A DNA stretch of 64,000 nucleotides. It comes from Pseudomonadales bacterium (GTDB lineage: Bacteria; Pseudomonadota; Gammaproteobacteria; Pseudomonadales; Azotimanducaceae). The position numbers were made by a program, and so were the translations under genes. The notes under the pieces were generated by a model. It searched no databases. It had not been told where the DNA came from and saw only the letters and a list, made by a program, of their open reading frames with translations. This document shows, piece after piece, positions 16,788 to 52,246 of the stretch (within the stretch, counting starts at the first letter, position 1; every line of letters starts with the position of its first letter). The stretch covers positions 42,498 to 106,497 of the forward strand of contig JAJDTI010000179.1 of NCBI GenBank assembly GCA_022827245.1, given 5' to 3'.

Positions 16788-19114
<2,327 letters not shown>

Positions 19115-19118
<4 letters not shown>

Positions 19119-20272
19119 CGTCCAGACCAGCCGCGGGCGAAGACCGTCCCGGGCCGCCCGTTCTCGTGACCGGCGGGTCCGGACACGTGGGCGCGAATCT
19201 CGTGCGCCGGCTGCTCGCCGATGGCGTTCGCGTGCGCGTGCTGTTGCTGGGGGACAGCCCCAACGAGGCGTTGGAGGGCCTGGACGTGGAGCGGGCCTAC
19301 GCGGACATCCGCGACCTCGCCGCCACGCGGCGCGCGGTCGAGGGCTGCCAGGGCATCTATCACTGCGCGGCCCGCGTCTCGACCATCGACGGCGACCGCG
19401 CCCATCGCCGGGAGCTGTTCGAGTGCAACGTGATCGGCACCCGCAACGTGCTGCAGGCGGCGCGGGAAGCGGACGCCGGCCGGGTGGTGGTGACCGGCTC
19501 CTTCAGCGCCGTCGGATACGACCTGGACGATCCGTCGACGCCGAGCGACGAAACGATGCAGTTCTACCCGATGGCCCGGACCATGCCCTATGAGCGGAGC
19601 AAGGTGCTGGTCGAGCACGAGTGCCTGCGTGCCGTGGCGAAGGGTCAGGAGGTCGTGGTGGCGACGTCCTGCGCGGTGGTTGGCGGCGCCGACTTCGTGC
19701 CTTCGCGTCTGGGACGGACCCTGTGCGACTTCGCCAACGGGAAGCTGCACGCGTACGTCGACGGCGGCTTCGAGTTCGTGGCGGCGCAGGACCTCGTGCA
19801 GGGCCACGTGCTGTGCATGCACAAGGGACGCCCCGGCGAGAAGTACATCTTCGGCAGCGAGTACAAGACCATCTCCGACATCCTCGATCTCTTCGAGGAG
19901 GCCACCGGGGTTCCCAGGCCGCACCGGGCGATCCCGAGTTCCGCGATGTACGTGTTCGCGGAAGTGGCCAGCTTCTACCTCAGCCGCTTCCACCCGCGTT
20001 TCCCGCAACGCTTCACGCCCGGCGCCATCCGCCTGCTGAAGCTGCGGCGGCGCGCGAACACGGCCAAGGCGCGGCAGGAGCTCGGATATCGGCCGACGGG
20101 CATCCGGGCGGCGGTGCACGAGGCTTACGCGTTCCACTACCTGCGCGGCGCGATCGGCAATCCCGATGCGAAGCGCCCGAGCGCGGCGCCGGGGGATACG
20201 GACCCGGGTCCCGCGGCCGGCGAGGCGGCCGCCGAGGCGGCGCGCGTAGCGTCCGGAGAAGGCGCCGCATGA
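19115..20272 (+). CDS. NAD(P)-dependent 3-beta-hydroxysteroid dehydrogenase-like SDR (SdmB-like)
   Basis: 385-residue extended SDR. LVTGGSGHVGANLVRRLL is the cofactor motif, and YERSK the active-site YxxxK with a preceding Ser (TGSFSAV). The family includes 3-beta-HSD/C4-decarboxylases and hopanoid-associated epimerases. In Methylococcus, SdmB of this type works with a Rieske oxygenase to remove a sterol C4 methyl group. Here it is directly upstream of a Rieske gene with an ATGA junction on both sides, so a C4-demethylation role is the best inference. The C-terminal 30 residues are Ala/Gly/Pro-rich and probably disordered. Confidence 0.8.
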
Positions 20273-21357
20273 ACCACGCGCCGCCGAGCTTCACGGATGG
20301 CGGGACCCTGCGCCAGCGCGCCCGGGCCGCGGGCCTGGACCCCGACTACTGGTATGCGGTGGAGGAGGTACGCCGGGTCAAGCCGGGCACGGTGGTCGAG
20401 GTGGTCTTCTGGGGCCGCTCCATCGCGCTGTTTCGAGGTGACGATGGCACGTTTCGCGCCGTCGAGAACCGCTGCGCGCACCGCCAGATCAAGCTCTCCC
20501 TGGGCGAGGTCGAGGGCTGCCGCCTGGTGTGCGCCTACCACGGCTGGCAGTACGACGGGGACGGGCACTGCGTCGAGATCCCGCACGAACGCTATGGCCG
20601 GGGTTTCCCCAAGCTCACGCTGCGCACCTATCCGGTGCAGGTCCGCTACGGCCTGGTCTGGCTGTTCCCGGGAGACCCCGACAAGGCCCGGGAACGCCGG
20701 ATACCGGACATCCCGGAACTCGAGGGTCCGGCGCGCTGGGCCTGCGTACCGCTGACCTTCGACTGGTCCGCCCACCACTCGATGGTGATCGACAACGTGA
20801 GCGACTTCTCCCATGCCCACCTGCATCGTCGGTACCGCCCGTTCGACAACGCGCGGCTGACCCGCTGCGATACGGTCGGCGACAACGTGCACGTCGCCTA
20901 CGAGACGCGCATCGGCGGCGGACGCATCACCGGCCGCTTCGTCGAGCGCGACCGGGTCGACACCGGCCGCATCGAGCTCTGCTACGAGTACCCGTACCAG
21001 TGGTCCAACACGGACGACGCGATCAAGCACTGGTTGTTCGTGCTGCCGGTGAACGAGCGCACGACGCGCGTGTTCTTCCTGTTCTACTTCAGGTCGCTGA
21101 AGATCCCCGGGTTACCGATTCGCATTCCGAGGGCCGCCATGACGCCGGTCATGCGGCTCTCGAACCGGTGGGCGATCGGCCCGCTCCTCGACCAGGACCG
21201 GTTCGCCGTCGAAGCGGAGCAGCGCGGCTACGAACGCCACTGGGATGCGCCGCCCGTCGAACTGAACCCGGCCGTGCGGGCGTTCCAGGAAGTGACCGTG
21301 CGGAAATGGGGAGAGTATCTCGAGCGGGAGTCGGAGCACGCCCGTGACCCTGCTTGA
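20269..21357 (+). CDS. Rieske non-heme iron oxygenase (SdmA-like)
   Basis: 362 residues. The Rieske cluster ligands are seen as CAHR and CAYHGW (CxH then CxxH) at about residues 70-92. The mononuclear iron motif fits DNVSDFSHAHLHR (Asp-His-His type). No membrane segments are evident. The family oxidises steroids and aromatic rings; in sterol-making methanotrophs SdmA oxidises the C4 methyl of 4,4-dimethylsterols. Coupling to the SDR upstream and to a sterol reductase downstream supports that role. A ferredoxin or reductase partner is not in the window. It overlaps the next gene by 14 bases. Confidence 0.85.
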   Translation: MNHAPPSFTDGGTLRQRARAAGLDPDYWYAVEEVRRVKPGTVVEVVFWGRSIALFRGDDGTFRAVENRCAHRQIKLSLGEVEGCRLVCAYHGWQYDGDGHCVEIPHERYGRGFPKLTLRTYPVQVRYGLVWLFPGDPDKARERRIPDIPELEGPARWACVPLTFDWSAHHSMVIDNVSDFSHAHLHRRYRPFDNARLTRCDTVGDNVHVAYETRIGGGRITGRFVERDRVDTGRIELCYEYPYQWSNTDDAIKHWLFVLPVNERTTRVFFLFYFRSLKIPGLPIRIPRAAMTPVMRLSNRWAIGPLLDQDRFAVEAEQRGYERHWDAPPVELNPAVRAFQEVTVRKWGEYLERESEHARDPA

Positions 21358-22441
21358 CGCCATCCCGCCGTCGGCGCTCTCCACCGCCGCCCTGCTCGAA
21401 GCCGCGGCCCTGCTGCTGGCGTTCGTCGTGGCCCTGTTCGTCGGCTCGATGGTGGTCCCCGGACGCCGGCTGACGCCGACCGGTCCCGCGGGGGCGCAGC
21501 GCACGAAGCTCAACGGACTGGCCCTGTTCGCGATCGTCGTGGCCGCGGCCGCGATCGGACAGGTCGCCGGCTGGTTCTCCCTCGCCACGCTGCATACGCG
21601 TTTCGCGGCCCTGTTCGTCGCCGCGAACGTCTTCGCCTTCGGCCTTGCCGGCTGGCTCTACTGGCGCGCCGCCCGTGAGCGCGACGCGCCCGCCGGTTTC
21701 TGGCGCGGCTTCTTTCTCGGCCGGGAACTCAGTCCCGCCTGGTTCGGCGTGGACCTCAAGCTCTTCAGCTACCGGCCGTCGCTCATGGGCCTCGCGCTCC
21801 TCAACGCCTCGTTCGCGGTCGCGCAGTACGAAACGCATGGTGAGCTGACTCTGGCAATGACGGTCTACCAGGTCTTCGCGTTCCTGTACGTGCTGAACTA
21901 CTTCCAGTTCGAGTACGGCATGGTCCATACCTGGGACATCGTGAGCGAACGTTTCGGCTGGATGCTGATCTGGGGCGACTACGTCCTGGTGCCCTTCTTC
22001 TACTGCATCGCCGGCTGGTGGCTGGTGGACGCCGCCGGACCGCCGCTGTCTCCCTGGGCGGCCGCCGCGATCGTCGCGCTGTTCGTGTTCGGCTTCGTGC
22101 TGTTCCGCGGCGCGAACGGGCAGAAGCACCGCTTCCGGCAGGACCCCGACACCAGGATCTGGGGGAGGACCGCCGAATCGCTGGACGGACGCCTGCTGGT
22201 CTCCGGGTTCTGGGGGGTCGGGCGGCACCTGAACTACACCGGCGAGATCTGCGTCTACGTGGCCTTCGCGCTGACCACGGGTTTCGCCTCCTTCGTCCCG
22301 TACCTCTTGCCGGCATGGCTGACGGTCCTGCTGGTGCACCGGGCCCGGCGCGACGAGCGCCGCTGCCGCGCGAAGTACGGCGCCCTCTGGGAGCGCTACA
22401 CCGAGCGCGCCCGGTTCTCCATGCTGCCGTACGTCTACTAG
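21344..22441 (+). CDS. ERG4/ERG24-family sterol reductase, probable delta-14 reductase
   Basis: 365-residue polytopic membrane protein with about eight to nine hydrophobic segments. The family signature LLVSGFWGVGRHLNYTGE is present, and the C-terminus has the usual RDERRCRAKYG, WERYTER and PYVY endings. Family members reduce the delta-14, delta-7 or delta-24(28) sterol double bonds with NADPH. The neighbouring CYP51 creates a delta-14 bond, so C14 reduction is the most economical assignment. GTG 21344 overlaps the Rieske gene end and is the first start giving a full membrane domain. Confidence 0.88.
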   Translation: MTLLDAIPPSALSTAALLEAAALLLAFVVALFVGSMVVPGRRLTPTGPAGAQRTKLNGLALFAIVVAAAAIGQVAGWFSLATLHTRFAALFVAANVFAFGLAGWLYWRAARERDAPAGFWRGFFLGRELSPAWFGVDLKLFSYRPSLMGLALLNASFAVAQYETHGELTLAMTVYQVFAFLYVLNYFQFEYGMVHTWDIVSERFGWMLIWGDYVLVPFFYCIAGWWLVDAAGPPLSPWAAAAIVALFVFGFVLFRGANGQKHRFRQDPDTRIWGRTAESLDGRLLVSGFWGVGRHLNYTGEICVYVAFALTTGFASFVPYLLPAWLTVLLVHRARRDERRCRAKYGALWERYTERARFSMLPYVY

Positions 22442-22456: not shown

Positions 22457-23866
22457 ATGCCGACCCCAGCCCACAGCGTCGAACTCCCGCGCGCGCGACC
22501 AGGATCTCCGCGTACGGCGAAACCCGTTCCGGAGCTCTCGGGCGGACGGCCGCTGGTCGGCCATCTCCCCGAGTTCCAGAAGGACCCGGTCGCGATGCTG
22601 ACCCGCGGCCAGCGGGAGTGCGGCGACCTGTTCCGCTTCCGTCTCGGACCACGTCCGTTCGTGCTGTTCGCCGGACCGGAGGCCCACGACGCTTACTTCC
22701 GGGCGCCGGACGAGCAGTTGGACGCGAAGTCCGTCTACCGGTTCACGGTGCCCATCTTCGGCCGCGGCGTGGCCTACGACGTCTCGCCCCAGCTCATGAC
22801 CGAGCAGTTGGGCTTCCTGTTCCCGGCCCTGCGCGAGTCATCCATGCGCAGGTTCGCGCGCATCATGTTCGAGGAGACGAGCAGCTACGCCGACGCCCTC
22901 CCCGACGAGGGCGAACTCGACCTGCCAACCGCGATGAACGAGCTGACCGTCAACATCGCGAGCCGCTGCTTCCTCGGCGAGGAGGTGCGCAGCGAGGTGG
23001 ACGCCGGCTTCGCCGAGGCGTACCACGACCTCCAGAAGGGCATCAACACGCTTGGGTTCTTCCTGCCGCGGCTGCCCACGCCAGGACACCGCAGCCGCGA
23101 CCGAGCCCGGCGGACCGTGACGGCGCTGTTCTCCCGGATCATGCGCGAGCGCCGGCGTTCGAGCGCCGAGTCCGAGGACTTCATGCAGACGCTCATGCGG
23201 GCGCGCTACAAGGACGGCCGCGCCCTCAGCGACGACGAGATCACCGGAATCCTGCTCGCGGCGCTGTTCGCCGGGCAGCACACGAGCGCCGTGCTCGCGA
23301 GCTGGACTGGCCTCGAACTGCAGCGAGACCCGGCGTACCTCGCGCGCGTGAAAGCCGAGATGCGGGACGTCTACGGTGGAGCGGGCGACCTGACGTTCGC
23401 GGGTCTCAAGCGACAGGCAACGCTCGAGAACGCCGTGCGCGAGTGCGAGCGCCTGCACCCGCCGCTGATCATCCTGGTGCGCAAGGCGCTCCAGCGGATG
23501 GTGTATCGCGACCAGGTCATACCCGCCGGCACCCTGGCGATGGTGTCCCCGGCGGTTTCCCATCGCCTGCCGGACGTGTTCTCCGATCCCGAGCGGTTTC
23601 TGCCCGACCGCTTCGCGCCCCCGGCGCACGAGGACAAGCAGCACCAGTACACGTTGATCGGGTTCGGCGGCGGCAAGCACCGATGCATGGGCAAGCACTT
23701 CGCGATCCTGCAGATCAAGGCGATCTGGACCGTCCTCCTCGACCGCTTCGACTTCCGCCTGGACGGCGCGTTTCCCGCGCCGAACTACGGAAGCTGGGTG
23801 ACGGGACCCAAGACACCCTGCCTGCTCCGCTACCGCCGTCGCCCGGAGGCGGGCGTCTTCGGCTGA
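22457..23866 (+). CDS. Sterol 14-alpha-demethylase cytochrome P450 (CYP51)
   Basis: 469 residues. The CYP51-specific B'-region reads YRFTVPIFGRGVAYD, and the I-helix has LFAGQHTSAV rather than the usual AGxDT. The ExxR is in RECERLHPP, and the heme-binding loop is FGGGKHRCMGKHF. There is no N-terminal membrane anchor, as expected for a bacterial enzyme. It removes the 14-alpha methyl of lanosterol-type sterols by three oxidations. Redox partners are not encoded here, and no fused ferredoxin is present. It starts 15 bases after the sterol reductase gene and ends 4 bases before the epoxidase-cyclase gene. Confidence 0.95.
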   Translation: MPTPAHSVELPRARPGSPRTAKPVPELSGGRPLVGHLPEFQKDPVAMLTRGQRECGDLFRFRLGPRPFVLFAGPEAHDAYFRAPDEQLDAKSVYRFTVPIFGRGVAYDVSPQLMTEQLGFLFPALRESSMRRFARIMFEETSSYADALPDEGELDLPTAMNELTVNIASRCFLGEEVRSEVDAGFAEAYHDLQKGINTLGFFLPRLPTPGHRSRDRARRTVTALFSRIMRERRRSSAESEDFMQTLMRARYKDGRALSDDEITGILLAALFAGQHTSAVLASWTGLELQRDPAYLARVKAEMRDVYGGAGDLTFAGLKRQATLENAVRECERLHPPLIILVRKALQRMVYRDQVIPAGTLAMVSPAVSHRLPDVFSDPERFLPDRFAPPAHEDKQHQYTLIGFGGGKHRCMGKHFAILQIKAIWTVLLDRFDFRLDGAFPAPNYGSWVTGPKTPCLLRYRRRPEAGVFG

Positions 23867-23870
23867 GGCC

Positions 23871-26800
23871 GTGGCCGTTTCGCCCGAGTATGACGTCGCC
23901 GTCGTCGGAGGCGGCCCGGTAGGCGCCTTCTGCGCCCTCGCGCATGCCCGGGCGGGCGCGCGGGTCGCCCTGCTCGAGGCGAATCCGAAAGCGTCCACGC
24001 GACTGGCCGGCGAGTGGCTGCACCCTCCCGCCGTGCGGATGCTGCGCGAGGTCGGGCTGAACCTCGACACCGAGCGTCGCAGTGCCCCGGGCAAGGGATT
24101 CGTGGTCCTGCCGGAGGACGGTTCGGAGCCGATCGTGCTTCCCTATCCGGCGGGCATGGTCGGCGTCGCCTGCGAGCACGCGGCGCTCGTCTCGGGCCTG
24201 CACGAGGCGCTTCGGAACCAGCCCGGCGTCGACTGCCACGCCAACGCGCGGGTGCGCTCCGTCGAAGACCGGCGCGTCGTCTTCACGCGCGCGGGCAGGG
24301 AACGCTCGCTCCGGGCGGCAAGGATCGTCGGCGCGGACGGCCGCGTCTCGATCGTGCGCCGGTCGCTCGGCCTGTCAACGCGGCGGCTGACCTGTTCGCG
24401 CATGATCGGGGTCGCCGTCGAGGACGCGACCCTGCCGTTCGAGGGCTACGGGCACGTGCTGCTCGGGGGGCCGGGGCCGGTTCTCATCTTCCGCCTCGAC
24501 GAGGGCCGCGTGCGCCTCGTCGTCGACGTCCCCCTCGACCACTGGACGCAGGACCGGACCGCGCTCCTGGAAGAGACCTACGCCGACCTGCTCCCCGAGT
24601 CGCTCAGGCACGGGTTCGTCCAGGCGCTGCGGGAAGGCAGGTTCAAGGCCGCCAACAACGAACTGAGGCCCCGCACCACCTACGGCACGTCGCGGCGCGC
24701 GCTCGTCGGCGACGCGGCAGGGCACTATCACCCGCTCACGGCGGTGGGCCTGACCCTGGGATTCGGCGACGCCCTCGCCCTGGCCGAGGAGCGCAGTTTC
24801 GACGATTTCGCAACCACGCGCCTGGCCGCCACCCGCGGCCCGGAGCTGCTCGCGATGTCGCTCTACGAGGTCTTCGCCGACCATCGAACCGAAGCGGCGT
24901 CGCTCCGGCAGGCCGTGTATCGGAGATGGCGCGCGAACGGGAGCGTACGGGAGCGGACCATGGGCCTGCTCGCCTGCGAGGACACGTCGGTCGCCCGTCT
25001 CGGCCTTGCGTTCTACGGGATGGTGGCCGGGGCCGTTGCGGCCGCACTGCCCCGATCCGTCGACCGGCGCGCATGGCGTCGGACGCGCGACACGGTTCAC
25101 GCGCTCGCCGTCCGCATCGGTCACTGCCAGCGCGGCTTTCGCGAGCTGCGCAAGGCTGCCGGCACCGGGGCCGACCCGGAGGGGCGGTCCGGGAACAGCC
25201 TGTCGAAAGGACTCCTGGTCTCCATGGGATCGCACCATGGCGACGCCCGCCAGAGTCGCGCAAGCGCCGGCGCATCGGTGGACGCGGGCGCGGCGTTGCG
25301 GGGGGCGGCAACGTACCTGCTGGACCTCCAGGGCGAGGACGGGGGCTGGGAAGGCGAGATGACCTGGTGTCCGATGCTCGCCGCGCAGTACGTGCTCCTG
25401 CATCACCTCGTCGGGCAGCCGCTCGCGCCGGCCCGGCAGCGCCTCATCCTCCGCCACTTCGCCGACACCCGCCTGCCGGACGGTACGTGGGGCCTGCACG
25501 AGCACTCGCAGCCTTACCTCTTCGTGACGACCCTGGTCTACGTGGCCGCGCGGCTGATGGGGGTCGAGCGCGACGCTGCGCTGATCGAGCGGGCCGGGCG
25601 GTTCGTGCGCCGCGAGGGAGTGCTCGCGATACCCACCTGGGGCAAGTTCTGGCTCGCGCTGCTCGGTCTGTACGACTGGCGGGGCGTGCACGCCATGCTG
25701 CCCGAACTCTGGCGGTTGCCGCGGTGGTTGCCCGTGCATCCCGCCAAGTGGTACTGCCACACCCGGCAAATATACATGGCGATGGCGGCGGTCTATGCCC
25801 ATCGCTATCGCGCGCCCGTGACGCCGTCGATCGCGGCGCTGCGCGAGGAACTCTTTCCGGAGGGGTTCGCCAACGTCAACTTCCCCGCCGGTCGCAGCCG
25901 CTTGCGGGAGGCGGACCTCTACGCCAGGCCGACCGTCCTGTGCCGGGCCGCACAGGGCGCGGCGCTGGTGTTCGACCGGTTCCACGGCAAGCGCCTGCGC
26001 CGGGACTGCCGGGACGACCTGGTCCGGCGGATCCGTTGGGAGCTTTCGAGCTCGGGGCACACGAGCATCTCCCCCGTAAGCGGCTTCCTCAACATCCTCG
26101 CACTGTGGCTCGAGGACCCGGACGACCCCGACTGCCACGCAGCGCTACGGCGGCTGGACGACTGGATCTGGGAAGACGAGGCGGGCGGGGCCCGCGTCAC
26201 GGGGGCGCGGAGCGCTTCCTGGGACACGGGATTCGCCCTGCAGGCGCTGGCCGCGGCGCCGGAACCCGGCGGATGGCCGGACGCGCTCCGCAGGGGCGTC
26301 GACTTCCTCCGCCGGCAACAGATTCGCACGAGTTTCGACGGATTCCGCGAGGCGGCGCGGGCCGACCCCAGCGGCGGGTGGTGCTTCGCCGGCGTGTGGC
26401 ATGGCTGGCCGGTGACGGATTGCACCGCGGAGGCGGTCCTCGGCATGCTCGCGAGCGATCCCAAGGGCGTGGACGAGGGCGCGCTCGGGGACGCGGTCGG
26501 ATTCATGCTGCGTGGGCAGAACCGCGACGGCGGCTTCGGGAGCTACGAGGCGCGGCGCTCCGTGATCGGCCTCGAGTGGCTCAACCCGGCCGAGATGTTC
26601 GGCGACTCGATGACCGAGCACTCCTACGTCGAGTGCACGGCCTCGTGCATGTCGGCCATCGCCGCCGCCCGTCGGCACTCCCCGCGTATCGTCGGCCCCG
26701 ACGCCGTGGAGGCCATGACGCGCGCCGACACGTGGCTGCGCAGGACGCAGGCGAGCGATGGGTCGTGGCGCGGCGTGTGGGGCGTGCAGTTCATCTACGG

Positions 26801-27251
26801 CACGTTCTTCGGCGTCAGGGGTCTGCTCGCCGGCGGGGCCCGGCCGGGCGACCCGGCGGTGCGGCTGGCCTGCCGATGGCTGCTCGACCGGCAGCGCAGC
26901 GACGGCGGATGGGGCGAGCATCACAGCGGGTGTCTCGCCGGCCGGTACGTGCCGCACGAGGAAAGCCAGGTCATCCAGACCGCCTGGGCCCTGATCGCGC
27001 TACTCGAGGCGGGGGACTCGAACTGGACCGCGATTTCCCGGGGCGCGGAGTTCCTCTGCAACGCGCAGCAGCCCGGCGGGACGTGGCCGAGGCAGGACAT
27101 GGCGGGGGTCTTCTTCCGCACCGCGCTTCTGGACTACGCGCTGTACCGCCAGTACTTTCCCCTCCATGCGCTCGCTCTGTACGAAGCGCGGCGGCGGGCT
27201 CGGACCTTTTGTCCGGCACCCGTCGACAGCCCCGCGAGAGCGGCTGGCTGA
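23871..27251 (+). CDS. Squalene epoxidase - oxidosqualene cyclase fusion
   Basis: A single uninterrupted 1126-residue frame from GTG 23871. Residues 1 to about 435 are a FAD monooxygenase of squalene-epoxidase type: VVGGGPVGAF, IVGADGR and LVGDAAGHYHPLTAVGL. A hydrophilic linker covers about 436-470. Residues from about 475 are an oxidosqualene cyclase: repeated QW-like motifs (GEDGGWEGE, GQNRDGGFGSY, RSDGGWGEHH) and the catalytic DCTAEA with Asp 850. Val 848, two before that Asp, and GGFGSYE with Tyr match lanosterol synthases rather than cycloartenol synthases. The SHC motif DxDD is absent. Met 452 (nt 25224) after AAGGA could allow a separate cyclase, but no stop divides the parts. Confidence 0.93.
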   Translation: MAVSPEYDVAVVGGGPVGAFCALAHARAGARVALLEANPKASTRLAGEWLHPPAVRMLREVGLNLDTERRSAPGKGFVVLPEDGSEPIVLPYPAGMVGVACEHAALVSGLHEALRNQPGVDCHANARVRSVEDRRVVFTRAGRERSLRAARIVGADGRVSIVRRSLGLSTRRLTCSRMIGVAVEDATLPFEGYGHVLLGGPGPVLIFRLDEGRVRLVVDVPLDHWTQDRTALLEETYADLLPESLRHGFVQALREGRFKAANNELRPRTTYGTSRRALVGDAAGHYHPLTAVGLTLGFGDALALAEERSFDDFATTRLAATRGPELLAMSLYEVFADHRTEAASLRQAVYRRWRANGSVRERTMGLLACEDTSVARLGLAFYGMVAGAVAAALPRSVDRRAWRRTRDTVHALAVRIGHCQRGFRELRKAAGTGADPEGRSGNSLSKGLLVSMGSHHGDARQSRASAGASVDAGAALRGAATYLLDLQGEDGGWEGEMTWCPMLAAQYVLLHHLVGQPLAPARQRLILRHFADTRLPDGTWGLHEHSQPYLFVTTLVYVAARLMGVERDAALIERAGRFVRREGVLAIPTWGKFWLALLGLYDWRGVHAMLPELWRLPRWLPVHPAKWYCHTRQIYMAMAAVYAHRYRAPVTPSIAALREELFPEGFANVNFPAGRSRLREADLYARPTVLCRAAQGAALVFDRFHGKRLRRDCRDDLVRRIRWELSSSGHTSISPVSGFLNILALWLEDPDDPDCHAALRRLDDWIWEDEAGGARVTGARSASWDTGFALQALAAAPEPGGWPDALRRGVDFLRRQQIRTSFDGFREAARADPSGGWCFAGVWHGWPVTDCTAEAVLGMLASDPKGVDEGALGDAVGFMLRGQNRDGGFGSYEARRSVIGLEWLNPAEMFGDSMTEHSYVECTASCMSAIAAARRHSPRIVGPDAVEAMTRADTWLRRTQASDGSWRGVWGVQFIYGTFFGVRGLLAGGARPGDPAVRLACRWLLDRQRSDGGWGEHHSGCLAGRYVPHEESQVIQTAWALIALLEAGDSNWTAISRGAEFLCNAQQPGGTWPRQDMAGVFFRTALLDYALYRQYFPLHALALYEARRRARTFCPAPVDSPARAAG

Positions 27252-27305: not shown

Positions 27306-28691
27306 ATGCCAAGGAGAGTCGCAATCGTCGGCGGCGGGGTCGCCGGCCTGGGAGCGGCCTGGGCACTGAGTCAGCATCCCGACCGGTTCGACTTCCGCGT
27401 GTTCGAAGCGGAGGCGCACCTCGGCGGCAACGCCATCACGGCCGACATGCCGCAGGACGACGGTACGTCGATCCCGTTCGACATCTCCGTCACCGCCTGC
27501 ATCCCGTCCGTGTATCACCACATCCTGCTGCTGGCCCCGCAACTCGGCATCGAGCTCGTCGACAACCGGTTCAGCTACAGCGTCGCGTACCGCGGCGGAA
27601 TCTACGCGCACGACCTGGACAGCGGCATCCACCAAGAGCTGCGAGCGGAGATCGCGAAGTTCCAGCGGCTCCTGCGGCGCCTGAACCGGTTTGGCCGTCT
27701 CAACCGGTCTCGGTCCAGGCTCCTGAATGCCCTCAACCCCTTCAACTACGTGAGCATGGGGACCGTCCTCAACTTCGGCCGCTACTCGGGGGACTTCCGG
27801 TACAAGGTGCTGAAGCCCATGTTCGTCAACTTCCTGATGGCGACCAACGTCTTCGACATGCCGACGTCGCTGTTCTCGCGGTACCTGGAGTTCTTCGACA
27901 TCGAGACCGCCACGCCGATGCGGACCTGGGTAGGCGGGACGCGGCGCATCTACGAGAAGCTGACGGAAGGGTTTCGCGACAGGATCCACCTCGGCAGGCG
28001 GGTCAGCAAGGTCGTCCGGTCCGGGTCGGCGGTGCTCGTGGAGGACGAGAACGGCGCCGTCGAGACCTTCGACGACGTCGTCTTCGCCTGCAACGCGAAC
28101 CAGACGCTGATGGCGCTCGACAAGCCGAGCTTTCTCGAGAGCTGGATGCTGGCGTCGATTCGCTACGAGAGCGAACTGCACAACCATGCCGTCGTCCACT
28201 CGGACGCCTCGGTGCTTCCCGACAACGCCGCGCGGCCGCTCGAGACCCGCAGCAACCACATCGAGCAGTACGGCGCCCGGCCGGACAACTACGAAATCAC
28301 CTACATCATGCACAACCAGCAGCCGTGGGCGAACGGATCGGACAAGCCCTGCCTGGTGACCTACAACCCGGTCAGCCGCATCGACGAGAGCAAGGTCATC
28401 AAGCGGTGGTGGTTTCAGCACGTCGTGCACGATGTCCGCCACATCGTCCTCCTGGTCCCGCTGTTGCGCCTGATCCAGGGCAGGAAACGGACCTGGCACT
28501 GCGGGGCGCACACGCTGATCAACAGCCAGGAGACGTGTTTCGTGACCGGCCTGGTGACGGCCAGGCAGCTCGGTGCGGACTATCCGTTCCGGGACGACGA
28601 GACCCGGAAGTGGTTCAACTTCTACGGGCGCATGATGTACGGATGGCGCTTCAGGAAGGCGCGGTCCGGCGGCGACGCCGACATCGACTGA
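27306..28691 (+). CDS. FAD-dependent oxidoreductase (COG2907-like), last gene of sterol operon
   Basis: 461 residues. The N-terminal dinucleotide motif is VAIVGGGVAGLGAAWAL, followed by an Arg/Gly-rich second FAD contact (LGGNAIT). The general pattern is amine oxidase/phytoene desaturase-like, and MRTWVGGTRRIYEKL fits the flavin-fold core. It lies 54 bases after the epoxidase-cyclase gene and is codirectional. Its step is not known; a desaturase or double-bond reductase acting on the sterol nucleus or side chain is a guess from position. It is not the DHCR24 type, which belongs to the VAO flavin family. Confidence 0.7.
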   Translation: MPRRVAIVGGGVAGLGAAWALSQHPDRFDFRVFEAEAHLGGNAITADMPQDDGTSIPFDISVTACIPSVYHHILLLAPQLGIELVDNRFSYSVAYRGGIYAHDLDSGIHQELRAEIAKFQRLLRRLNRFGRLNRSRSRLLNALNPFNYVSMGTVLNFGRYSGDFRYKVLKPMFVNFLMATNVFDMPTSLFSRYLEFFDIETATPMRTWVGGTRRIYEKLTEGFRDRIHLGRRVSKVVRSGSAVLVEDENGAVETFDDVVFACNANQTLMALDKPSFLESWMLASIRYESELHNHAVVHSDASVLPDNAARPLETRSNHIEQYGARPDNYEITYIMHNQQPWANGSDKPCLVTYNPVSRIDESKVIKRWWFQHVVHDVRHIVLLVPLLRLIQGRKRTWHCGAHTLINSQETCFVTGLVTARQLGADYPFRDDETRKWFNFYGRMMYGWRFRKARSGGDADID

Positions 28692-28707: not shown

Positions 28708-29442
28708 CTACAGCCCGACGACGCTGTAGTTCCCGTCGAGGATCAGGCGGACAGAGACGTACAGGCCCAGCAGCGGGAAGAGCACCCACGGGGCGTTGGT
28801 CGCAAGGACGAACACCCACATCTCGCGTCGGCTGATGCGTTCGTGGCGCCCCGCGATGAAGAAGCTCGCGAGGTACACGCTCGTCACGTAGGTCCACTGC
28901 CAGAAGAGCGCGAGGCCGAGCATGCCCGTGAGGAGTGCGGGCATGAAGCCCACCGTCACGGCGGCATAGAGGAGGAGCGTCGGCACCGCCGTCACGAAAC
29001 CGTTCGCGGTGTCGGCGTTGAACCCGAACGTCCGCCGGTCGGCGAAAGAAGGGTCGTACTGCGAGTAGGTCGACCAGACATCGGTCCAGACCGTCGGCGA
29101 GAGTACGCCGGTCCACGGCACTTCGGCCGCGAAGAACTCGAGGGCCGGTGTCCGGCCGGTTTCGCGCCGCCGCTCGCGCCAGTACGCGGTGCGCGTCTCG
29201 ACATCGGACCGGCGAAGAAAGAGGCACGCCTCCCAGTAGCAGATCATCAGGTTGAGCGCGAGGAACAGGCTGAGGGCGCAGTGGACGACGCTGACATCCG
29301 CATACACGTAGTAGCGTACCGCGACGCCCGCAACGGTGAACGCCGTCACGATCAGCGCGGCGAGCGGCAGCACGCGGATGGTCGGGACGAATCGGGCGTT
29401 CGCCCGCGGATGAATGCCCCGGTACGAGGGGCTGTCGCTCAT
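28708..29442 (-). CDS. Polytopic membrane protein, EBP/EXPERA-like candidate sterol isomerase
   Basis: 244 residues with about five hydrophobic helices (roughly 22-46, 50-76, 148-168, 172-195, 208-238). Spacing and some motifs recall emopamil-binding protein (sterol delta8-delta7 isomerase): an acidic residue at the end of helix 2 (CYWEACLF), an ADRRTFGFNADTAN loop, and ATNAPWVLFPLLG where EBP has its MNALW Asn. The second catalytic Glu of EBP is not evident, so this is a weak match. It follows squalene synthase by six bases in one operon, convergent with the main sterol operon. If not an isomerase, it is a membrane protein of unknown function. Confidence 0.5.
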   Translation of the reverse strand: MSDSPSYRGIHPRANARFVPTIRVLPLAALIVTAFTVAGVAVRYYVYADVSVVHCALSLFLALNLMICYWEACLFLRRSDVETRTAYWRERRRETGRTPALEFFAAEVPWTGVLSPTVWTDVWSTYSQYDPSFADRRTFGFNADTANGFVTAVPTLLLYAAVTVGFMPALLTGMLGLALFWQWTYVTSVYLASFFIAGRHERISRREMWVFVLATNAPWVLFPLLGLYVSVRLILDGNYSVVGL

Positions 29443-29448: not shown

Positions 29449-30528
29449 CTACCCGTCGCCGGCCCGCAGGACCGGCGACGGCGCCGCCACGTCGAACAGC
29501 CACCGCAGGGCGTTGTCGTGACGCACCGCCAGGCTGGTCGCAGCGATGGTGGCATACACCTGGCGGCGCGAGATCTTGACGTCGTCTCCCCGGTCGAACC
29601 GCGGGTTGGCGTCGATGCGGCGCAGGGTCAGCGCGGCGAACCCCAGGGTCCATAGCAGGAACCGACGGATGCCCGGTTCGTCCCGGGGCACCAGCAAGGC
29701 GAACCGCAGCGCCGCATCCAGATGGCGCCGGGCCTCCGCGGCCAGACGAGCGATCCGCCGGGCGCCGGCCGGTTCGCCCGCCGCGCCCGGGAACGGCTCG
29801 GCGTCCGGGTGCGGGAAGTCGCGCGGCAGCCAGCTCACGCCCCGGGCCAGGTCCTCCCGGTGGTCCTTGAGGATGTTCACGAGTTGCAGACCGCGCCCGA
29901 ACCGCGACGACAGGGGGAAGAGCGCTCCGCGGCGCGTCGCGATCTCCGCCGAGTAGTCACAGAGCAGGTCGGTGATCATCTCGCCCACCACGCCGGCCAC
30001 GTAGTGGCAGTACCGGTCGACCTCGACCATGCCCCGCAGGCCTTCCGCTCCGGTCCCGACGAACTCGGCCATGCCATGGCACATCTGCGTGACGCACCGC
30101 TCGACCGCGTCGCGCTGGCCCGACGGCAGTTCCCGCTGAAAGCCGACCACGAGCGGGGCGTTGGCCACCAGGTCCCGCTCGCCGTCCGGGGTCGCGTCGG
30201 ACAGACAGCCCGCCAGGTCCGCCGCGAACGGCTCCACGATCGCGGCGCCCACCACCACGTCGGCGAACCGATGCAGGTACTCCCGCTTGCGGGATGCGGC
30301 AAGGCGCGGCTCGTCTTCGATCGTGTCGGCGATGCGGCACAGCAGGTAGGCGTTGCCCACGACGCCGCGCAGCGGCGCCGGGAGCTGCGGGATCGTCAGC
30401 GCGAACGTCCGCGACACCCGCTGCAGCGCCTGCTCCTGGTACCGGAGCGCCGCCTCGGTCGTGGCGCCACCCACGCGAGCGCCAGGGAGCGGTGGCGTGC
30501 TCTTGCGAGGGGCCAGTCCAGGTTGCAT
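29449..30528 (-). CDS. Squalene synthase (trans-isoprenyl diphosphate synthase, head-to-head)
   Basis: 359 residues. The first Asp-rich site lies in LLCRIADTIEDE, and the second in VNILKDHREDLARG. DRYCHYVAGVVGEMITDL is the conserved central helix shared with eukaryotic-type squalene synthase (FDFT1-like). Residues near the start (SRTFALTIPQLP) also match. It joins two farnesyl diphosphates. Phytoene synthase is the alternative, but the gene context (epoxidase, cyclase, CYP51) favours squalene. HpnCDE-type genes are absent from the window. ATG 30528 is used; the region upstream holds the conserved promoter element. The EBP-like gene follows in the same operon. Confidence 0.88.
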   Translation of the reverse strand: MQPGLAPRKSTPPLPGARVGGATTEAALRYQEQALQRVSRTFALTIPQLPAPLRGVVGNAYLLCRIADTIEDEPRLAASRKREYLHRFADVVVGAAIVEPFAADLAGCLSDATPDGERDLVANAPLVVGFQRELPSGQRDAVERCVTQMCHGMAEFVGTGAEGLRGMVEVDRYCHYVAGVVGEMITDLLCDYSAEIATRRGALFPLSSRFGRGLQLVNILKDHREDLARGVSWLPRDFPHPDAEPFPGAAGEPAGARRIARLAAEARRHLDAALRFALLVPRDEPGIRRFLLWTLGFAALTLRRIDANPRFDRGDDVKISRRQVYATIAATSLAVRHDNALRWLFDVAAPSPVLRAGDG

Positions 30529-30560
30529 GAGTCGGCTCCTGTTCGGAGGCCGCGACCGGG

Positions 30561-30617
30561 GACTTATCCCATACGCCCCATGGACTTTGAATGCACAAGG
30601 AGACCGGGTTCGTGTCC
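30561..30617 (-). promoter_or_regulatory. Shared 57-bp promoter/operator element, right copy
   Basis: The minus-strand copy of the element at 16654-16710, 46/57 identical with no gap. The core TTGTGCATTCAA is at 30598-30587 and ATAAGTC at 30567-30561. It lies 32 bases before the squalene synthase ATG. Two operons that feed one pathway thus carry the same element in matching orientation to their genes. Confidence 0.75.
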
Positions 30618-30738
30618 ATTCCATGTATCCAGGCGCGCAGGCAGCGCTCGCAGACGCGCCGGCGGACACTCCACTCCGGCTGGCGCTCGGTCCTCCCAGC
30701 ACTTAGTCTTTGCGCTCCTTTCTCCAGGAGTTCCCGCC

Positions 30739-36698: not shown

Positions 36699-37883
36699 AT
36701 GCGCCGACCTCAACGGCTATCGGCCTCCTTCGTCAAGACCGTCAACGTCCCAGGCCGCTACGGCGATGGGCGTGGCGGCCACGGACTCTCCCTGCTCGTC
36801 AAGCCGATGCGTGCCGGCGGCTTCTCCAAGTCCTGGTCGCAAAGGCTACTCGTCAACGGCCGGCCAACCAACATCGGCCTGGGAGGCTACCCCATCGTAA
36901 CTCTCGCGGAGGCCCGCCGAGCGGTCATCGCCAATCGCAGGGCGGTCGCGCAGGGACGCGACCCGCGCGCCGGGGGCGTGCCAACCTTCGAAGAGGCAGC
37001 CGAGAAGGTGATCGCCATGCACGAGCCGACCTGGAAGGACGGCGCGAGGTCCGCCGCCATCTGGCGGTCGAGCCTGAGGGACTACGCCATGCCGCACCTT
37101 GGCCGAAAGACCGTCGACTCGATCACGACGGCGGACGTCATGGCCGTCCTCGTTCCGATCTGGAGCACGAAGCGCGAGACGGCGCGCCGGGTTCGCCAAC
37201 GCATCGGCGCTGTCATGAAGTGGAGCGTCGCCCACCGGTACCGACAGGACAACCCCGCCGGGGACGCGATCGCCGAGGCGCTCCCGCGAGACGGCGGGTC
37301 CGTGAAGATCCACCACCGCGCCCTGCCTCATGCCGAGGTCGGTGCCGCGGTCGCGAAGATCCGCGCTTCCGGGGCGTACCGCTCGACCGTGTTCGCTTTC
37401 GAATTTCTGGTCCTCACCGCCAGCAGGTCCGGCGAGGTCAGGGGCGCCCGATGGCAGGAGGTCGACTTCGAATCTGCCACGTGGACCGTGCCCGCATCCC
37501 GCATGAAGATGTCCCGCCCGCATCGCGTCCCGCTCTCGGCGCGGGCGGTCGAAATCCTCGACGAGGCACGCGAGCTGGCCGACGATGCCGACCTGGTCTT
37601 CCCATCACCAACCGGTCGGATGCTCAGCGACAGCACAATCTCCAAGCTCGTGCGGGAGAACGGCATCGGCTGTGTGCCCCACGGCATGAGAAGCTCCTTC
37701 CGCGACTGGGCTGCGGAGTGTTCGGACGCCCCGCGCGAGGTCTGCGAACTTGCCCTGGCACACGTCAACAGCGACCGCGTCGAGGCAGCCTACCGGCGTT
37801 CGGACCTTTTCGAGAAACGGCGCGAACTCATGCAGGACTGGGCGAACTACCTCGCGGAGTCGCCCGTTCCGGTCGTGACATGA
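36699..37883 (+). CDS. Tyrosine-type site-specific integrase (P4 family)
   Basis: 394 residues. The N-terminal arm-binding DUF4102-like domain is followed by the SAM-like core domain and the catalytic domain with Arg in SRSGEVRGARW, HGMRSSFRD (HxxR) and the final His and Tyr in LAHVNSDRVEAAYRRSD. All catalytic residues can be seen, so it is probably active. It lies just inside the left att repeat and would catalyse island excision and integration at ssrA. ATG 36699 gives the family N-terminus. Confidence 0.93.
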   Translation: MRRPQRLSASFVKTVNVPGRYGDGRGGHGLSLLVKPMRAGGFSKSWSQRLLVNGRPTNIGLGGYPIVTLAEARRAVIANRRAVAQGRDPRAGGVPTFEEAAEKVIAMHEPTWKDGARSAAIWRSSLRDYAMPHLGRKTVDSITTADVMAVLVPIWSTKRETARRVRQRIGAVMKWSVAHRYRQDNPAGDAIAEALPRDGGSVKIHHRALPHAEVGAAVAKIRASGAYRSTVFAFEFLVLTASRSGEVRGARWQEVDFESATWTVPASRMKMSRPHRVPLSARAVEILDEARELADDADLVFPSPTGRMLSDSTISKLVRENGIGCVPHGMRSSFRDWAAECSDAPREVCELALAHVNSDRVEAAYRRSDLFEKRRELMQDWANYLAESPVPVVT

Positions 37884-38079
37884 CCGCGCTTGACGCCAAC
37901 TTGCCCCGCCTTTGACGCTCCGAGGGTCGCCATGACGAAAATGAACATGGTCTGGCTCGCCGTGGCGACCCTGATCCACCCCGACACACGACCAGCCCGC
38001 CTCGTCTCCAAAGAGATCGATGCGAGGGCACAAGAGCTTTTTCGGACGAGCATCACGCCGGTGATGATTACCCGTCACC

Positions 38080-38304
38080 TTGTCGCATCCGAAGATCGAC
38101 AACGCGACCGTCGCGATCCTCGCCGAGGCGAGCCGAAACCGCTACCTCACGAAGCTCGGCGATCGGTACCGGCTGTATCGTCTATCCGATCAACCGAACG
38201 ACGGGCTCGACAAGACGGGCCCCTACTGCCCGTGCGCAGACGATGTCCCTACAGAGTATCGCCACCTCATTCAGTGGTACCGCCGAGACTACCTCGGCCT
38301 CTAA
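38080..38304 (+). CDS. Small hypothetical protein
   Basis: 74 residues from a TTG start, reading SHPKIDNATVAILAEASRNRY and ending HLIQWYRRDYLGL. It has CPC in the middle and no clear domain. No strong ribosome site precedes it, so it may be a remnant. It follows the integrase by about 200 bases on the same strand. Confidence 0.35.
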   Translation: MSHPKIDNATVAILAEASRNRYLTKLGDRYRLYRLSDQPNDGLDKTGPYCPCADDVPTEYRHLIQWYRRDYLGL

Positions 38305-38892
38305 GGTTGCGTCCGTAGCCGTGGCGGAACGTTCCGCCGTGTCAAGCGGGGCGCTCGGCACATTCGGCCGATGCGACCAGACCACTCTGGTCTCCTTGTG
38401 TTCGACCCCATACGGATCATGGGCGTTGCCTTCGGCCCGCGCCCTAGTCGGCTTCGCCGACCCGAGCCCGCAGGCGGTCTCGGCCCATTCGGGAAACGGT
38501 CGCTAACGCTTCCGCCCTCCGGGCGGTGAGACCTCCTCGCCAACACTGCTGAACCTGCACCGTCCGCCAGCCGGACGATCGCCATTCGTCGATCTGGGCC
38601 GCGCGCCAACGAGACTACTTGGTCGAATGTAGCCGCCAACGCGTCCCAAGCAATTTCGAGTATTGCCGATACCAGCCAATCGGCGCGACATCGCTCCCGG
38701 TCGTTCGGAAACCGCAGCAGGGTCGTCCGTCTTGTGCACCAGCGTGTCACCCGTGCTCGACCGGTCAACCGGTCGGTTCTCCGCTTCGCTCCGACCTCGC
38801 TGACGCTCGGTGACCGGCCTGCGCGCGGGCGGCCCCTGTCCAGGCACCGACGCACTCCCGCGTCGGCAACTCAGCCTGCACAGGAGATCATC
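38305..38892. other. No clear gene
   Basis: 588 bases with no convincing coding frame. The stretch 38758-38775 carries a repeated ACCGGT (ACCGGTCAACCGGT). I see no RNA gene or insertion sequence. Confidence 0.5.
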
Positions 38893-39432
38893 ATGGACCT
38901 TCAACTTCTCATCGCCCAGTGGAGCGGGGCATTGCCGCCGGGCTTCGTCCGGCCCGCCATCCTCACCGAGGGCACCGACCGGTGCGCCCAGCCGCGGTGC
39001 ACGCGAAAGGTCGCCATCAAGAGCAACGGGGAGCCGGCCAAGTCGTGCTCGAGATGCCTCGAACGACGCGCCAGATCCTGCAAGCGTCGCCGGGCGGCCC
39101 TGGTCGCCGAAGGCGGCTGTCGGCGCTGCGCGTACCGGAAACGTCTCGAGGGCGACTTCCTCTGCACGCGGTGCCGCGAAGACCGCGATGCCGAGCACGC
39201 GCAGAAGCGCCAGGACGCCCTTGACGCGGCGGCCATCGAGGAGTTCGCTGCACAGCTCGAGCGGGTCCACCAGGCGAGCAACCTCGACTGCGGGATCTCG
39301 CCTTGGAACGCGAGGCCGAAGCCGCAGCCCTCGGCGGCATACTGGTCGCCGCTGCCGGACCCGGAGCCGCGTGAGGAGCGCGAGTGGGCCAACTCGATCA
39401 GCGACACCGGGTGGCGGTACAGACGTCACTGA
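38893..39432 (+). CDS. Cys-rich putative zinc-ribbon protein
   Basis: 179 residues starting at ATG 38893 after CAGGAG. It holds four short Cys pairs: CAQPRC, CSRC, CRRC and CTRC, spaced so that two zinc knuckles could form, in a very basic central region (RRARSCKRRR). A charged helical C-terminus follows. It probably binds nucleic acid, but no family is recognised. It is inside the island between the integrase and the recombinase cassette. Confidence 0.6.
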   Translation: MDLQLLIAQWSGALPPGFVRPAILTEGTDRCAQPRCTRKVAIKSNGEPAKSCSRCLERRARSCKRRRAALVAEGGCRRCAYRKRLEGDFLCTRCREDRDAEHAQKRQDALDAAAIEEFAAQLERVHQASNLDCGISPWNARPKPQPSAAYWSPLPDPEPREEREWANSISDTGWRYRRH

Positions 39433-39763
39433 CCTGCTCGCGCGATCCAGACGCGGCGGCTCCGGTCGTCGCGTCTCCACCGTCCCAGACGCTGCTCCTG
39501 GCGCGGCGCCGACTGTCAAGGCGACGGGTGCCGGCCGCACGGCAGGCCCTTTGCAGGCCGCGCCACGCCGCCAACGCTGGCGGTCGGGATGGCCACCGCG
39601 ACCCTTTCCAGCGCCAGTACCCTAGCTTGAGCAGATTTCCGGGCGAACTTCCTCCCGGCGGACGCCATCCCTGCCGTGGGGCGAGCACAACGGATTCGCC
39701 TCAACAGAGCGCGCAACGATGCAGAAGATGCCTGCGCGTCTCCCGCCGATACTACTTAACAAT
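39433..39763. other. No clear gene
   Basis: 331 bases without a convincing frame. The open frames here are short and arginine-rich shadows. The last 20 bases begin the AT-rich promoter region of the recombinase cassette. Confidence 0.5.
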
Positions 39764-39792
39764 TTGATAAACAAAGAATAATTGCGTTAATC
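39764..39792 (+). promoter_or_regulatory. Promoter of the recombinase cassette
   Basis: TTGATA (39764-39769), a 17-base spacer, TTAATC (39787-39792), within a strikingly AT-rich patch (39751-39790) in GC-rich DNA. Transcription would start near 39799 and favour the ATG at 39874 for the first gene. Confidence 0.5.
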
Positions 39793-39873
39793 CGCAGCTT
39801 GGACGATCATCGCGTCCATGCAACCCCCGTCGTTCCCCGCCACGACCGGAAACCCGCTCCCGCGGCCCGGCGG

Positions 39874-40134
39874 ATGACCCGCCTCTTGTCCCGACCGCAC
39901 GACAGAAAGCCCTTCGACGCAGCCGCCGAGGCGGCATCCCTGAAGGCCGACACCCGGGCCCGGCGTCGCCGCCGCCGCACTCCCTCCCGCCTCGACCGCC
40001 ACACGCACGAACTGCTCGCGCTGTACGACGCGGGCGCCACCGTCGCCGAGTTGCAGCGCTGGCTCGAAGCGCGGCGCGTCCGCGTCCACCAGACCACCGT
40101 CGGCCGCTGGCTGCGCCGCCGCGGCTGCCACTGA
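39874..40134 (+). CDS. Small helix-turn-helix protein of the recombinase cassette
   Basis: 86 residues from ATG 39874 (a TTG at 39799 would add 25). It is very basic (TRARRRRRRTPSR) and ends in a helix-turn-helix-like segment, ALYDAGATVAELQRWL...VHQTTVGRWLRRRG, similar to resolvase-type or transposase-type DNA-binding tails. It starts a codirectional set of four genes with gaps of 10 bases or overlaps. A DNA-binding accessory factor is likely. Confidence 0.55.
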   Translation: MTRLLSRPHDRKPFDAAAEAASLKADTRARRRRRRTPSRLDRHTHELLALYDAGATVAELQRWLEARRVRVHQTTVGRWLRRRGCH

Positions 40135-40143
40135 CAGTACCGC

Positions 40144-41052
40144 ATGGCGAAGTTCCGCAAGATCCGGTCGCCCGAGGATCAGGCCAGGGCCATAGTCGGC
40201 CGTCTGGTCAACCTCGGCGTTCTGAGGCGCAATCCCAACGCGCCCGCGTCCGTCGGCACCGTTCGCAACATCCGCCAGTGCCTGACGCAGATCGCCCGCC
40301 ATATAGCCGGGGACGGCCTCGAACTGTTCGACCTCGACCCGGCCAAGGCCAACGCCTACCTCCGCTCCCGCGCCGCCGATCTCGGCCAGAAGGCCCTCGA
40401 CGGGCACCGTCAGGCGCTCCAGAAGCTCCTGATCCATGTCCGCGGTTCGCTCCCCGAAGGCGGCAAGCTGACCATCGTCCGCTCGCTCAGGCCGACGCCC
40501 AAGGTCGGGCGGGCCTACGCCCCGCACCAGGTCCCCATGGTTGCAGGCCGGCAGACAGCACCCAACGCGCTCGCCACGCTGATCGCCCACGCGGCCGGAC
40601 TGCGCGCGCACGAGCTGCTGACGCTCGCCCGGCCTGCCGAGCGGCCTCCGGACGTCCGGCCCGCGCGCCCGGAGAAGTTCGAGGGCCGGCCGGGAACGGA
40701 CTACACCGTGGTCGGCAAGGGCGGCCTGACGCGCCTCGTCCGCATTCCCGACCACCTGGCCGAACGCCTCGAGGAGCGCCGCCTCGACGAACCGGCGCCC
40801 GTCACCGACCGCGGCATCCGCTACGTGTCGCGCTACGACCTCCGCGGCGGGGAGGCGTGGAGCCGCAGCTTCTCCCGCGCCTCGCACAGCGCCCTCGGCT
40901 GGAGCCGCGGTGCCCACGGGGTTCGCCACAGCTTTGCCCAGGAGCGCATGGCCGAACTGCAGCGCCACCTCGTCTACGACGATGCGCTGGAAGTGGTCAG
41001 CCAGGAGCTCGGGCACTTCAGGCCCCAGATCACCGAGGAGTACTTGAGGTGA
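40144..41052 (+). CDS. Tyrosine recombinase of unknown cassette
   Basis: 302 residues. A SAM-like N-terminal core domain (NIRQCLTQIARHIAG, LRSRAADLG) is followed by a shortened catalytic domain: Arg in GLRAHELLTLA, HGVRHSFAQ (HxxR) and LGHFRPQITEEYLR (His and Tyr). It is smaller than P4 integrases and lacks an arm-binding domain. The stop overlaps the GTG of the next gene. Its target may be the hairpin downstream at 42061, but this is only an inference. Confidence 0.8.
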   Translation: MAKFRKIRSPEDQARAIVGRLVNLGVLRRNPNAPASVGTVRNIRQCLTQIARHIAGDGLELFDLDPAKANAYLRSRAADLGQKALDGHRQALQKLLIHVRGSLPEGGKLTIVRSLRPTPKVGRAYAPHQVPMVAGRQTAPNALATLIAHAAGLRAHELLTLARPAERPPDVRPARPEKFEGRPGTDYTVVGKGGLTRLVRIPDHLAERLEERRLDEPAPVTDRGIRYVSRYDLRGGEAWSRSFSRASHSALGWSRGAHGVRHSFAQERMAELQRHLVYDDALEVVSQELGHFRPQITEEYLR

Positions 41053-41489
41053 GCCGCCGGCTGACTCTCCACCTCACAGCGCGCCACAACGCGGCCCTCG
41101 ACCGCATCCTCGGCGGCGGCGACAGCCACGACAACAACCAACGCCGCCGCGCGGTCGAACAGCTCATCCTCGACCGTGCCCGGGAATTGGGGGATCGGAC
41201 CGGCCCGCAGAACGCCGCCGCCGTCGAGTCTCCCGGCGCCGCGGAGAGTTCCGCTGCCCCGATCGACGAGAACACCGTCCGGCTGATCGACCGCCTGAAG
41301 GCATCGCGCGACCAGTACCGCCATCTCGCCGCGCGCGCCGAAGCCGCCCTCCTGGGCGTCCCGGTGCGCGACGACTACGGCAGCATCGAACGCCGCCTCG
41401 AACGTGCGCTCAGCGCCAAGGGCTTCCGCATGCCCGCCGCATCCGATCCGCGTGCACGCGCCGGGAGTCGCCGCAGCGGAGGGCGGTAG
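41049..41489 (+). CDS. Hypothetical protein of the recombinase cassette
   Basis: 146 residues from GTG 41049. The N-terminus RRLTLHLTARHNAALDRIL resembles a ribbon-helix-helix opening, and the rest is charged and helical (LIDRLKASRDQYRHLAARAEAALL). No family is recognised. Overlap with the recombinase gene suggests a partner in DNA binding or regulation. Confidence 0.55.
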   Translation: MSRRLTLHLTARHNAALDRILGGGDSHDNNQRRRAVEQLILDRARELGDRTGPQNAAAVESPGAAESSAAPIDENTVRLIDRLKASRDQYRHLAARAEAALLGVPVRDDYGSIERRLERALSAKGFRMPAASDPRARAGSRRSGGR

Positions 41490-41492
41490 CCG

Positions 41493-41984: not shown

Positions 41985-42060
41985 CCGCGTACCGCGCCCG
42001 AATCGCAGCATCCTCGCCTCGGGCCGCAAGGCCGAAACACCGTCGCAGAACGTGCGCCGC

Positions 42061-52198: not shown

Positions 52199-52246
52199 CT
52201 CGTCATACCTTTAGCCGGTTGTTGATACGTCGAGCTGTTCAGGTCG

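Follow-up and report, generated by a model that had tools for sequence, protein, structure and literature searches.

The window, by which we mean the whole stretch of 64,000 nucleotides of Pseudomonadales DNA analysed here, very probably encodes a squalene epoxidase (SQE) and an oxidosqualene cyclase (OSC) as one 1126-residue fusion of the MsbE type, predicted from its sequence to convert squalene via 2,3-oxidosqualene to lanosterol. This arrangement of domains is genuine and common among relatives, and publications have described it since 2020. The present analysis therefore contributes an account of how the junction arose, arguments against an internal start, the constant distance between the two domains and the link to a second fusion, which concerns mevalonate supply. 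The features are listed in Table 1.

Table 1. The SQE-OSC fusion, its parts and its neighbours (positions in the window)
Feature	Position	Strand	Remarks
HMG-CoA reductase - mevalonate kinase fusion	16788..19118	+	776 aa if the start is ATG 16788; TIGR00532 and TIGR00549 above cut-off
SdmB-like NAD-dependent sterol dehydrogenase	19115..20272	+	NF052578 best match, 316 bits, below cut-off 600; start set by ATGA overlap
SdmA-like Rieske oxygenase	20269..21357	+	NF052579 best match, 397 bits, below cut-off 600; ATGA overlap
Delta14-sterol reductase family (ERG24)	21344..22441	+	PF01222; 4quv, E 6e-66
CYP51-type sterol 14alpha-demethylase	22457..23866	+	best solved relatives cytochrome P450 51, E 1e-109
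Squalene epoxidase - oxidosqualene cyclase fusion	23871..27251	+	1126 aa; open frame, Pfam, model and fold match
Squalene epoxidase domain	23883..25160	+	residues 5-430
Junction	25161..25277	+	residues 431-469: conserved epoxidase tail (to about 454), low-confidence linker 455-466
Internal ATG (Met452)	25224..25226	+	not supported as a start
Oxidosqualene cyclase domain	25278..27209	+	residues 470-1113
DCTAEA catalytic motif	26418..26435	+	residues 850-855; D850 = human D455 (alignment to 1w6k)
FAD amine-oxidase-family protein	27306..28691	+	PF01593, 65 bits
Membrane protein, weak EXPERA/EBP (sterol isomerase superfamily) similarity	28708..29442	-	PF05241 below cut-off
Squalene synthase family	29449..30702	-	PF00494, 157.6 bits; TIGR01559 best but below cut-off

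One reading frame with two complete domains

Inspection of the reading frame showed a GTG start at 23871, a TGA stop ending at 27251 and 1126 codons without an internal stop. The chance of a random frame this long staying open is about 5.5e-9 at the gene's 72% GC, and a coding-like excess of GC at third positions was found in the epoxidase, linker and cyclase parts, weakest in the linker. Four Pfam domains exceeded their cut-offs in the fusion protein: FAD_binding_3 (residues 6-305), SE (152-389), SQHop_cyclase_N (478-770) and SQHop_cyclase_C (781-1105). The epoxidase part belongs to the SE family, with 83.9 bits for PF08491 (cut-off 20.1) and 85.4 bits for PF01494 (cut-off 22). The cyclase part scored 497 bits with TIGR01787 (squalene/oxidosqualene cyclases; cut-off 322.7) and 709 bits over the full profile with TIGR03463 (2,3-oxidosqualene cyclase), which is below the cut-off of 851; it is thus filed under TIGR01787 and not under TIGR03463.

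Among solved structures, the best relative of the epoxidase part is human squalene monooxygenase (residues 7-369, E 1e-24) and that of the cyclase part human lanosterol synthase (residues 475-1105, E 4e-125). A model of the whole chain, predicted from 93 fusion sequences including the window's own, reached a pLDDT of 85.2 and a pTM of 0.85. In this model residues 5-430 superpose on residues 122-571 of human SQLE, its solved length, and residues 470-1113, which have the OSC fold, on residues 71-731 of human OSC. It follows that neither enzyme is truncated and that the stretch separating them is only about 40 residues long. The flavin motifs, which we take to be the GxGxxG, DG and GD motifs of squalene epoxidases, are conserved: D156/G157 and G280/D281 are present in all 82 fusions compared and G13/G15 in 80, with gaps in the other two. 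The sequence-only reading, which had described one polypeptide with an FAD-binding epoxidase part followed by a cyclase part with DCTAEA, is thus borne out by frame, Pfam and model.

Could two genes have been joined by an artefact of assembly or annotation? The window's genome is a draft (4.96 Mb in 208 contigs, 86.6% complete; the window lies on contig C162), yet such an artefact is extremely improbable. We scanned named genomes with an alignment of 27 fusions; 280 of the 292 stretches found were relatives, and the best 80 of the 280 were kept. Both parts share one open frame at 79 of these 80 named loci, a number that does not estimate the frequency of the fusion across bacteria, because the alignment was built from fusions and only the best 80 of 280 loci were taken. 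At the one exception, L102, the cyclase part is interrupted by a stop. Five genomes of the same family (G063, G068, G085, G014 and G046) carry a full-length copy without stops. A stop or frameshift between the two parts was looked for and none was found, and two proteins from other public contigs have the same organization (P0001, 1126 aa, with 99% identity in the epoxidase part; P0002, 1111 aa, with 90%). As the same single frame recurs at the loci of other genomes, it is no accident of assembly.

A protein search with the epoxidase part as the query and length limits taken from the whole protein (7995 candidates scored) yielded 658 proteins with E values no higher than 0.001. Among the best 120 of these, 117 are single chains of 1107-1186 aa; the remaining three (766, 837 and 863 aa) also carry the SE and cyclase N-terminal domains. 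A closely related unfused pair of neighbouring SQE and OSC genes was sought in the DNA of genome samples from the class and the phylum and was not found. In the class sample 6 of 369 genomes matched at E 1e-60, three with the fusion (the window's own included) and three with a cyclase match without an epoxidase in the same frame. In the phylum sample, queried with the separate cyclase P0188, the window's own genome was the single match among 398. In G316 the epoxidase runs off the contig end. The window's own genome (86.6% complete) yielded no second relative of the cyclase part, and no relative turned up among viral contigs.

The junction and the internal methionine

The predicted model has pLDDT values below 50 at residues 433-436 and 455-466. 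Separate epoxidases end shortly past the motif LARAFLxS, which aligns with residues 444-451 of the fusion, and they share the tail of the fusion, with M, T, A or V following the motif. Separate cyclases (644-646 aa) mostly start with M-x-PD-x-x-SALR or a similar sequence; judged by eye, this sequence corresponds to residues 468-477 of the fusion. The ends of the epoxidases and the starts of the cyclases thus flank the junction, meaning that neither the epoxidase tail nor the cyclase was shortened. To judge from these alignments, the fusion seems to have lost only the stop of the epoxidase and the start of the cyclase.

For comparison 15 separate epoxidase/cyclase pairs were used, put together on the basis of equal lengths of their contigs. 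A quick tree placed three of the 15 among the fusions, as if fusions had repeatedly been split. We dropped this reading because a tree with all fusions together was 130 log units better than the quick tree. A single clade of fusions was not rejected against the 15 pairs (p-AU 0.99). Most likely the fusion arose once, when the tail of a separate epoxidase became joined to the start of a cyclase.

The suggestion that Met452 could also give a free cyclase does not agree with these data. It is true that an AAGGA ends 12 bases upstream of this ATG in the window, and a start codon is present at the site in 60 of 81 loci. However, the codon lies within the conserved epoxidase tail, directly after S451, which is near-invariant (80 of 82 fusions), and upstream of the usual start of separate cyclases. 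Position 452 is Met in 58 of the 82 fusions and Ile, Val or Leu in the other 24. Moreover, a Shine-Dalgarno-like 4-mer at -20 to -5 was found at one of the 60 loci with a start codon at 452, compared to 189 of 1206 other in-frame ATGs. Because Met452 belongs to the epoxidase tail and 59 of 60 relatives have no ribosome-binding signal there, it is very unlikely that the gene makes a free cyclase besides the full chain.

The operon, known systems and distribution

The fusion gene is the last in a row of six same-strand genes, in which neighbours either overlap by 4 to 14 bases or stand no more than 15 bases apart; the CYP51 gene ends 4 bases before it. The FAD protein gene begins 54 bases past it. 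Two of the neighbours are called SdmA-like and SdmB-like only, since they score below the cut-offs of the respective models. The similarity of the membrane protein to EBP is faint: PF05241 was found in six of eight relatives with 8-18 bits, always below the cut-off of 25.7 and with E up to 5, and a sequence search of solved structures gave no match at E up to 10. The order SdmB, SdmA, ERG24, CYP51, SQE-OSC was found at 54 of the best 80 of the 280 loci; where at least 5.5 kb of upstream sequence was available (63 loci), it was present in 51 and absent in 12.

The HMG-CoA reductase-mevalonate kinase gene overlaps the SdmB-like gene by 4 bases. Thus a second fusion of consecutive enzymes overlaps the operon. 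No published description of this second fusion was found in the literature searched.

The sequence-only reading knew of no described protein with the SQE-OSC arrangement and named published fusions of exactly this type as what would speak against it. Such fusions exist (PMC7074536, PMC10070321). MsbE is an SQE-OSC fusion encoded in the msb locus of a gammaproteobacterial symbiont of the sponge Melophlus sarasinorum (PMC7074536). By its description, the window's protein is like MsbE (MT026193.1): both domains are in one chain, with the epoxidase first. The neighbours are also alike, msbA-D encoding an NAD(P) oxidoreductase, a Rieske protein with overlapping gene, a sterol reductase and a C30-demethylase (PMC7074536). 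Unlike the window, the msb locus contains a sterol methyltransferase (msbF) and the squalene synthase is encoded elsewhere (PMC7074536), whereas the window has a squalene synthase gene close by and the HMG-CoA reductase-mevalonate kinase gene overlapping the operon start.

The accessible text of PMC10070321 names fused SMO/OSC homologs from sponge and environmental metagenomes, which have the same architecture as the window's fusion. They appear in the Methods, their N-termini having been trimmed before the OSC tree was built; in this text methyltransferases were assayed and no assay of the fused protein is told. Clusters of steroid genes from Ircinia symbionts, according to the available part of PMC9531527, occur in 115 of 537 MAGs from 10 phyla and have ERG24, CYP51 and LSS in the same order, usually with a reductase gene and a hypothetical gene ahead. 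The window agrees with this pattern, having the three genes in order on one strand with a reductase and a second gene upstream. The words epoxidase and monooxygenase and words beginning with fus are absent from the main text of PMC9531527, which does not name the fusion; the clusters' mean length of 5910 bp and the LSS alignment of 3765 positions would fit an SQE-OSC fusion.

The same two reactions are assigned to two proteins with consecutive locus tags in Methylococcus capsulatus (MCA2872, MCA2873). At two gammaproteobacterial loci without the fusion (L133, L136) the cyclase gene precedes the epoxidase-like gene, in contrast to the fusion with its epoxidase first. The fusion is not mentioned in the accessible portions of PMC10202945, PMC13277303, PMC12004948, PMC12008989 and PMC13001223, and no paper was found under the phrase SQE-OSC or similar. 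Nor did a test of a fused SQE-OSC enzyme turn up in the literature searched, which includes few subscription papers and so gives no proof of absence.

The fusion loci (best 80 of 280) are labelled Nitrospirota, Actinomycetota, Chloroflexota, Gemmatimonadota, Acidobacteriota, Binatota, Bacteroidota, Rhodothermota and Pseudomonadota. Of the 80 loci, 21 bear the prefix jk18x, which is used for an Ircinia sponge MAG in PMC9531527. For two others, L053 and L065, a sponge source is explicit. Among the remaining 57 we take several record prefixes to be reminiscent of sponge surveys.

Within the genus, one genome (G007) has a copy which is only 63% identical and cut at a contig end; seven others were searched and no full copy was found (of these, G001 is 71% complete and G006 64%). 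Fusion loci of other phyla are up to 69% identical to the window's. As genomes of the same genus lack a close full copy and other phyla reach such identities, we suspected spread across phyla. Recent, rampant transfer finds little support in the quick tree, which has nine changes of phylum label for nine phylum groups (minimum eight) and whose details are not firm, a better tree having been found afterwards. In this tree five of the seven listed phylum groups form one clade each, the exceptions being Pseudomonadota (four changes) and Acidobacteriota (two). For the operon, the accessible text of PMC9531527 reports occurrence across 10 phyla, purifying selection and horizontal gene transfer.

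Predicted product and possible coupling of the two steps

The catalytic Asp of DCTAE is D455 in human numbering. It is present as D850 in all 82 fusions, as is V848 (human V453) just upstream of the motif. At the position of human C449 there is H844 (81 of 82 fusions), and at that of T381 there is A779 (82 of 82), so that the Cys and Thr of the animal enzymes are both replaced. According to the accessible text of PMC4919349, Val453 was fully associated with lanosterol in the bacteria tested, and only one of the three residues is conserved between bacterial and eukaryotic cyclases. Val848, the residue of lanosterol synthases, thus predicts lanosterol as the product.

With Ala and His in place of the animal Thr and Cys, the product could differ. 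Instead of lanosterol, the cyclase might form parkeol, cycloartenol or an arborane-type triterpenol; alternatively, the epoxidase half might be inactive. The score below the TIGR03463 cut-off would fit as well. Yet this is unlikely in view of the Val at 453 in every fusion examined, the intact flavin motifs and the adjoining CYP51 and delta14-reductase genes, which fit sterols of the lanosterol type.

Beyond the single frame, the two complete domains and the conserved five-gene order, which are read directly from the sequence, we infer that both active sites are functional. The N-terminal flavin domain, supplied by a reductase encoded elsewhere, would make the epoxide, which would diffuse along a shared membrane face into the cyclase domain, and enzymes of the operon acting downstream would then remove the C14 and C4 methyls. 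The gain from the fusion is likely to be equal dosage and nearness of two membrane-bound steps.

Channelling of 2,3-oxidosqualene between the domains is possible. The chances are about even that the domains are instead independent enzymes sharing a chain, with co-expression as the benefit and no channelling. Separate versions exist in the 15 inferred pairs, with cyclases 67-72% and epoxidases 49-59% identical to the window's parts, and the model has low confidence in the linker. On the other hand, the distance between the domains hardly varies (E370 and W493 are 123 residues apart in 101 of 118 sequences), and the pTM of the model would suggest a fixed predicted arrangement. With a natural epoxidase-cyclase fusion, channelling of a membrane-bound epoxide could be tested directly, and a single gene would serve as the lanosterol source in engineered E. 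coli. Bacteria that make sterols are also relevant to sterane biomarkers and to the question of how sterol biosynthesis originated.

A bolder and rather doubtful idea is that one transcript with two fusions of consecutive enzymes amounts to a built-in sterol metabolon with intramolecular transfer of oxidosqualene, kept by sponge-associated bacteria of many phyla. The HMG-CoA reductase-mevalonate kinase fusion would then stand at the entry and the SQE-OSC fusion at the commitment step.

Fusion of two mevalonate-pathway enzymes

HMG-CoA reductase and mevalonate kinase are consecutive enzymes of the mevalonate pathway, and in the window they are encoded as one protein. Both enzymes were detected together in four of the 80 named loci (L043, L054, L055, L072), each time in one frame, that of L043 being interrupted by the locus edge. 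A match spanning both parts was found in 31 of 87 related genomes, every one of the same family; it was free of stops in 14 of the 31 and contained one or two stops in the remaining ones. The window's own genome (G000) carries a second copy (G000:C191, 69%) with one stop within the match. No description of this fusion was found in the literature search among the matches listed (best 10 of 18), and the accessible part of PMC13001223 makes no mention of it.

For DXP reductoisomerase of the MEP pathway, no match was obtained across the whole genome G000, which is 86.6% complete. Therefore the bacterium probably relies on mevalonate.

Features of the window discussed in this part
Feature	Position	Strand	Remark
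HMG-CoA reductase-mevalonate kinase fusion	16788-19118	+	single open frame; both NCBIfam cut-offs reached
FAD amine-oxidase-family protein	27306-28691	+	directly downstream of the squalene epoxidase-oxidosqualene cyclase (SQE-OSC) fusion
Conserved membrane protein	28708-29442	-	sub-threshold EXPERA/EBP similarity only
Phage-type integrase	36699		
PRTase-CE/AAA protein	42844		
tmRNA gene	53921-54272		end of the 36699-54272 stretch

SQE-OSC fusions and their neighbours

The conserved membrane protein adjoins sterol operons and shows 44-60% identity in six aligned relatives; it is a candidate sterol double-bond isomerase. The FAD amine-oxidase-family protein was also located close to the SQE-OSC fusion in several other loci.

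In nine loci (L034, L037, L051, L074, L084, L085, L089, L090 and L092) the SQE-OSC fusion persists separately from the sterol operon: with at least 5.5 kb of upstream DNA each, their fetched flanks contained no sterol-operon neighbour except weak P450 matches. Six of the nine come from Acidimicrobiia/Acidimicrobiaceae or Gemmatimonadetes. A further copy (L102:9941-13399) has a stop codon within the cyclase part; the gene may be in decay, or the stop may stem from faulty assembly.

Putative defence island

The stretch from the integrase to the tmRNA gene also holds a Vsr endonuclease, a C5 methyltransferase, a NOV_C protein and a SNF2 helicase, and the GC content is 54.5-57% from 48 to 54 kb of the window. 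Taken together, the stretch resembles a defence island located at a tmRNA gene.
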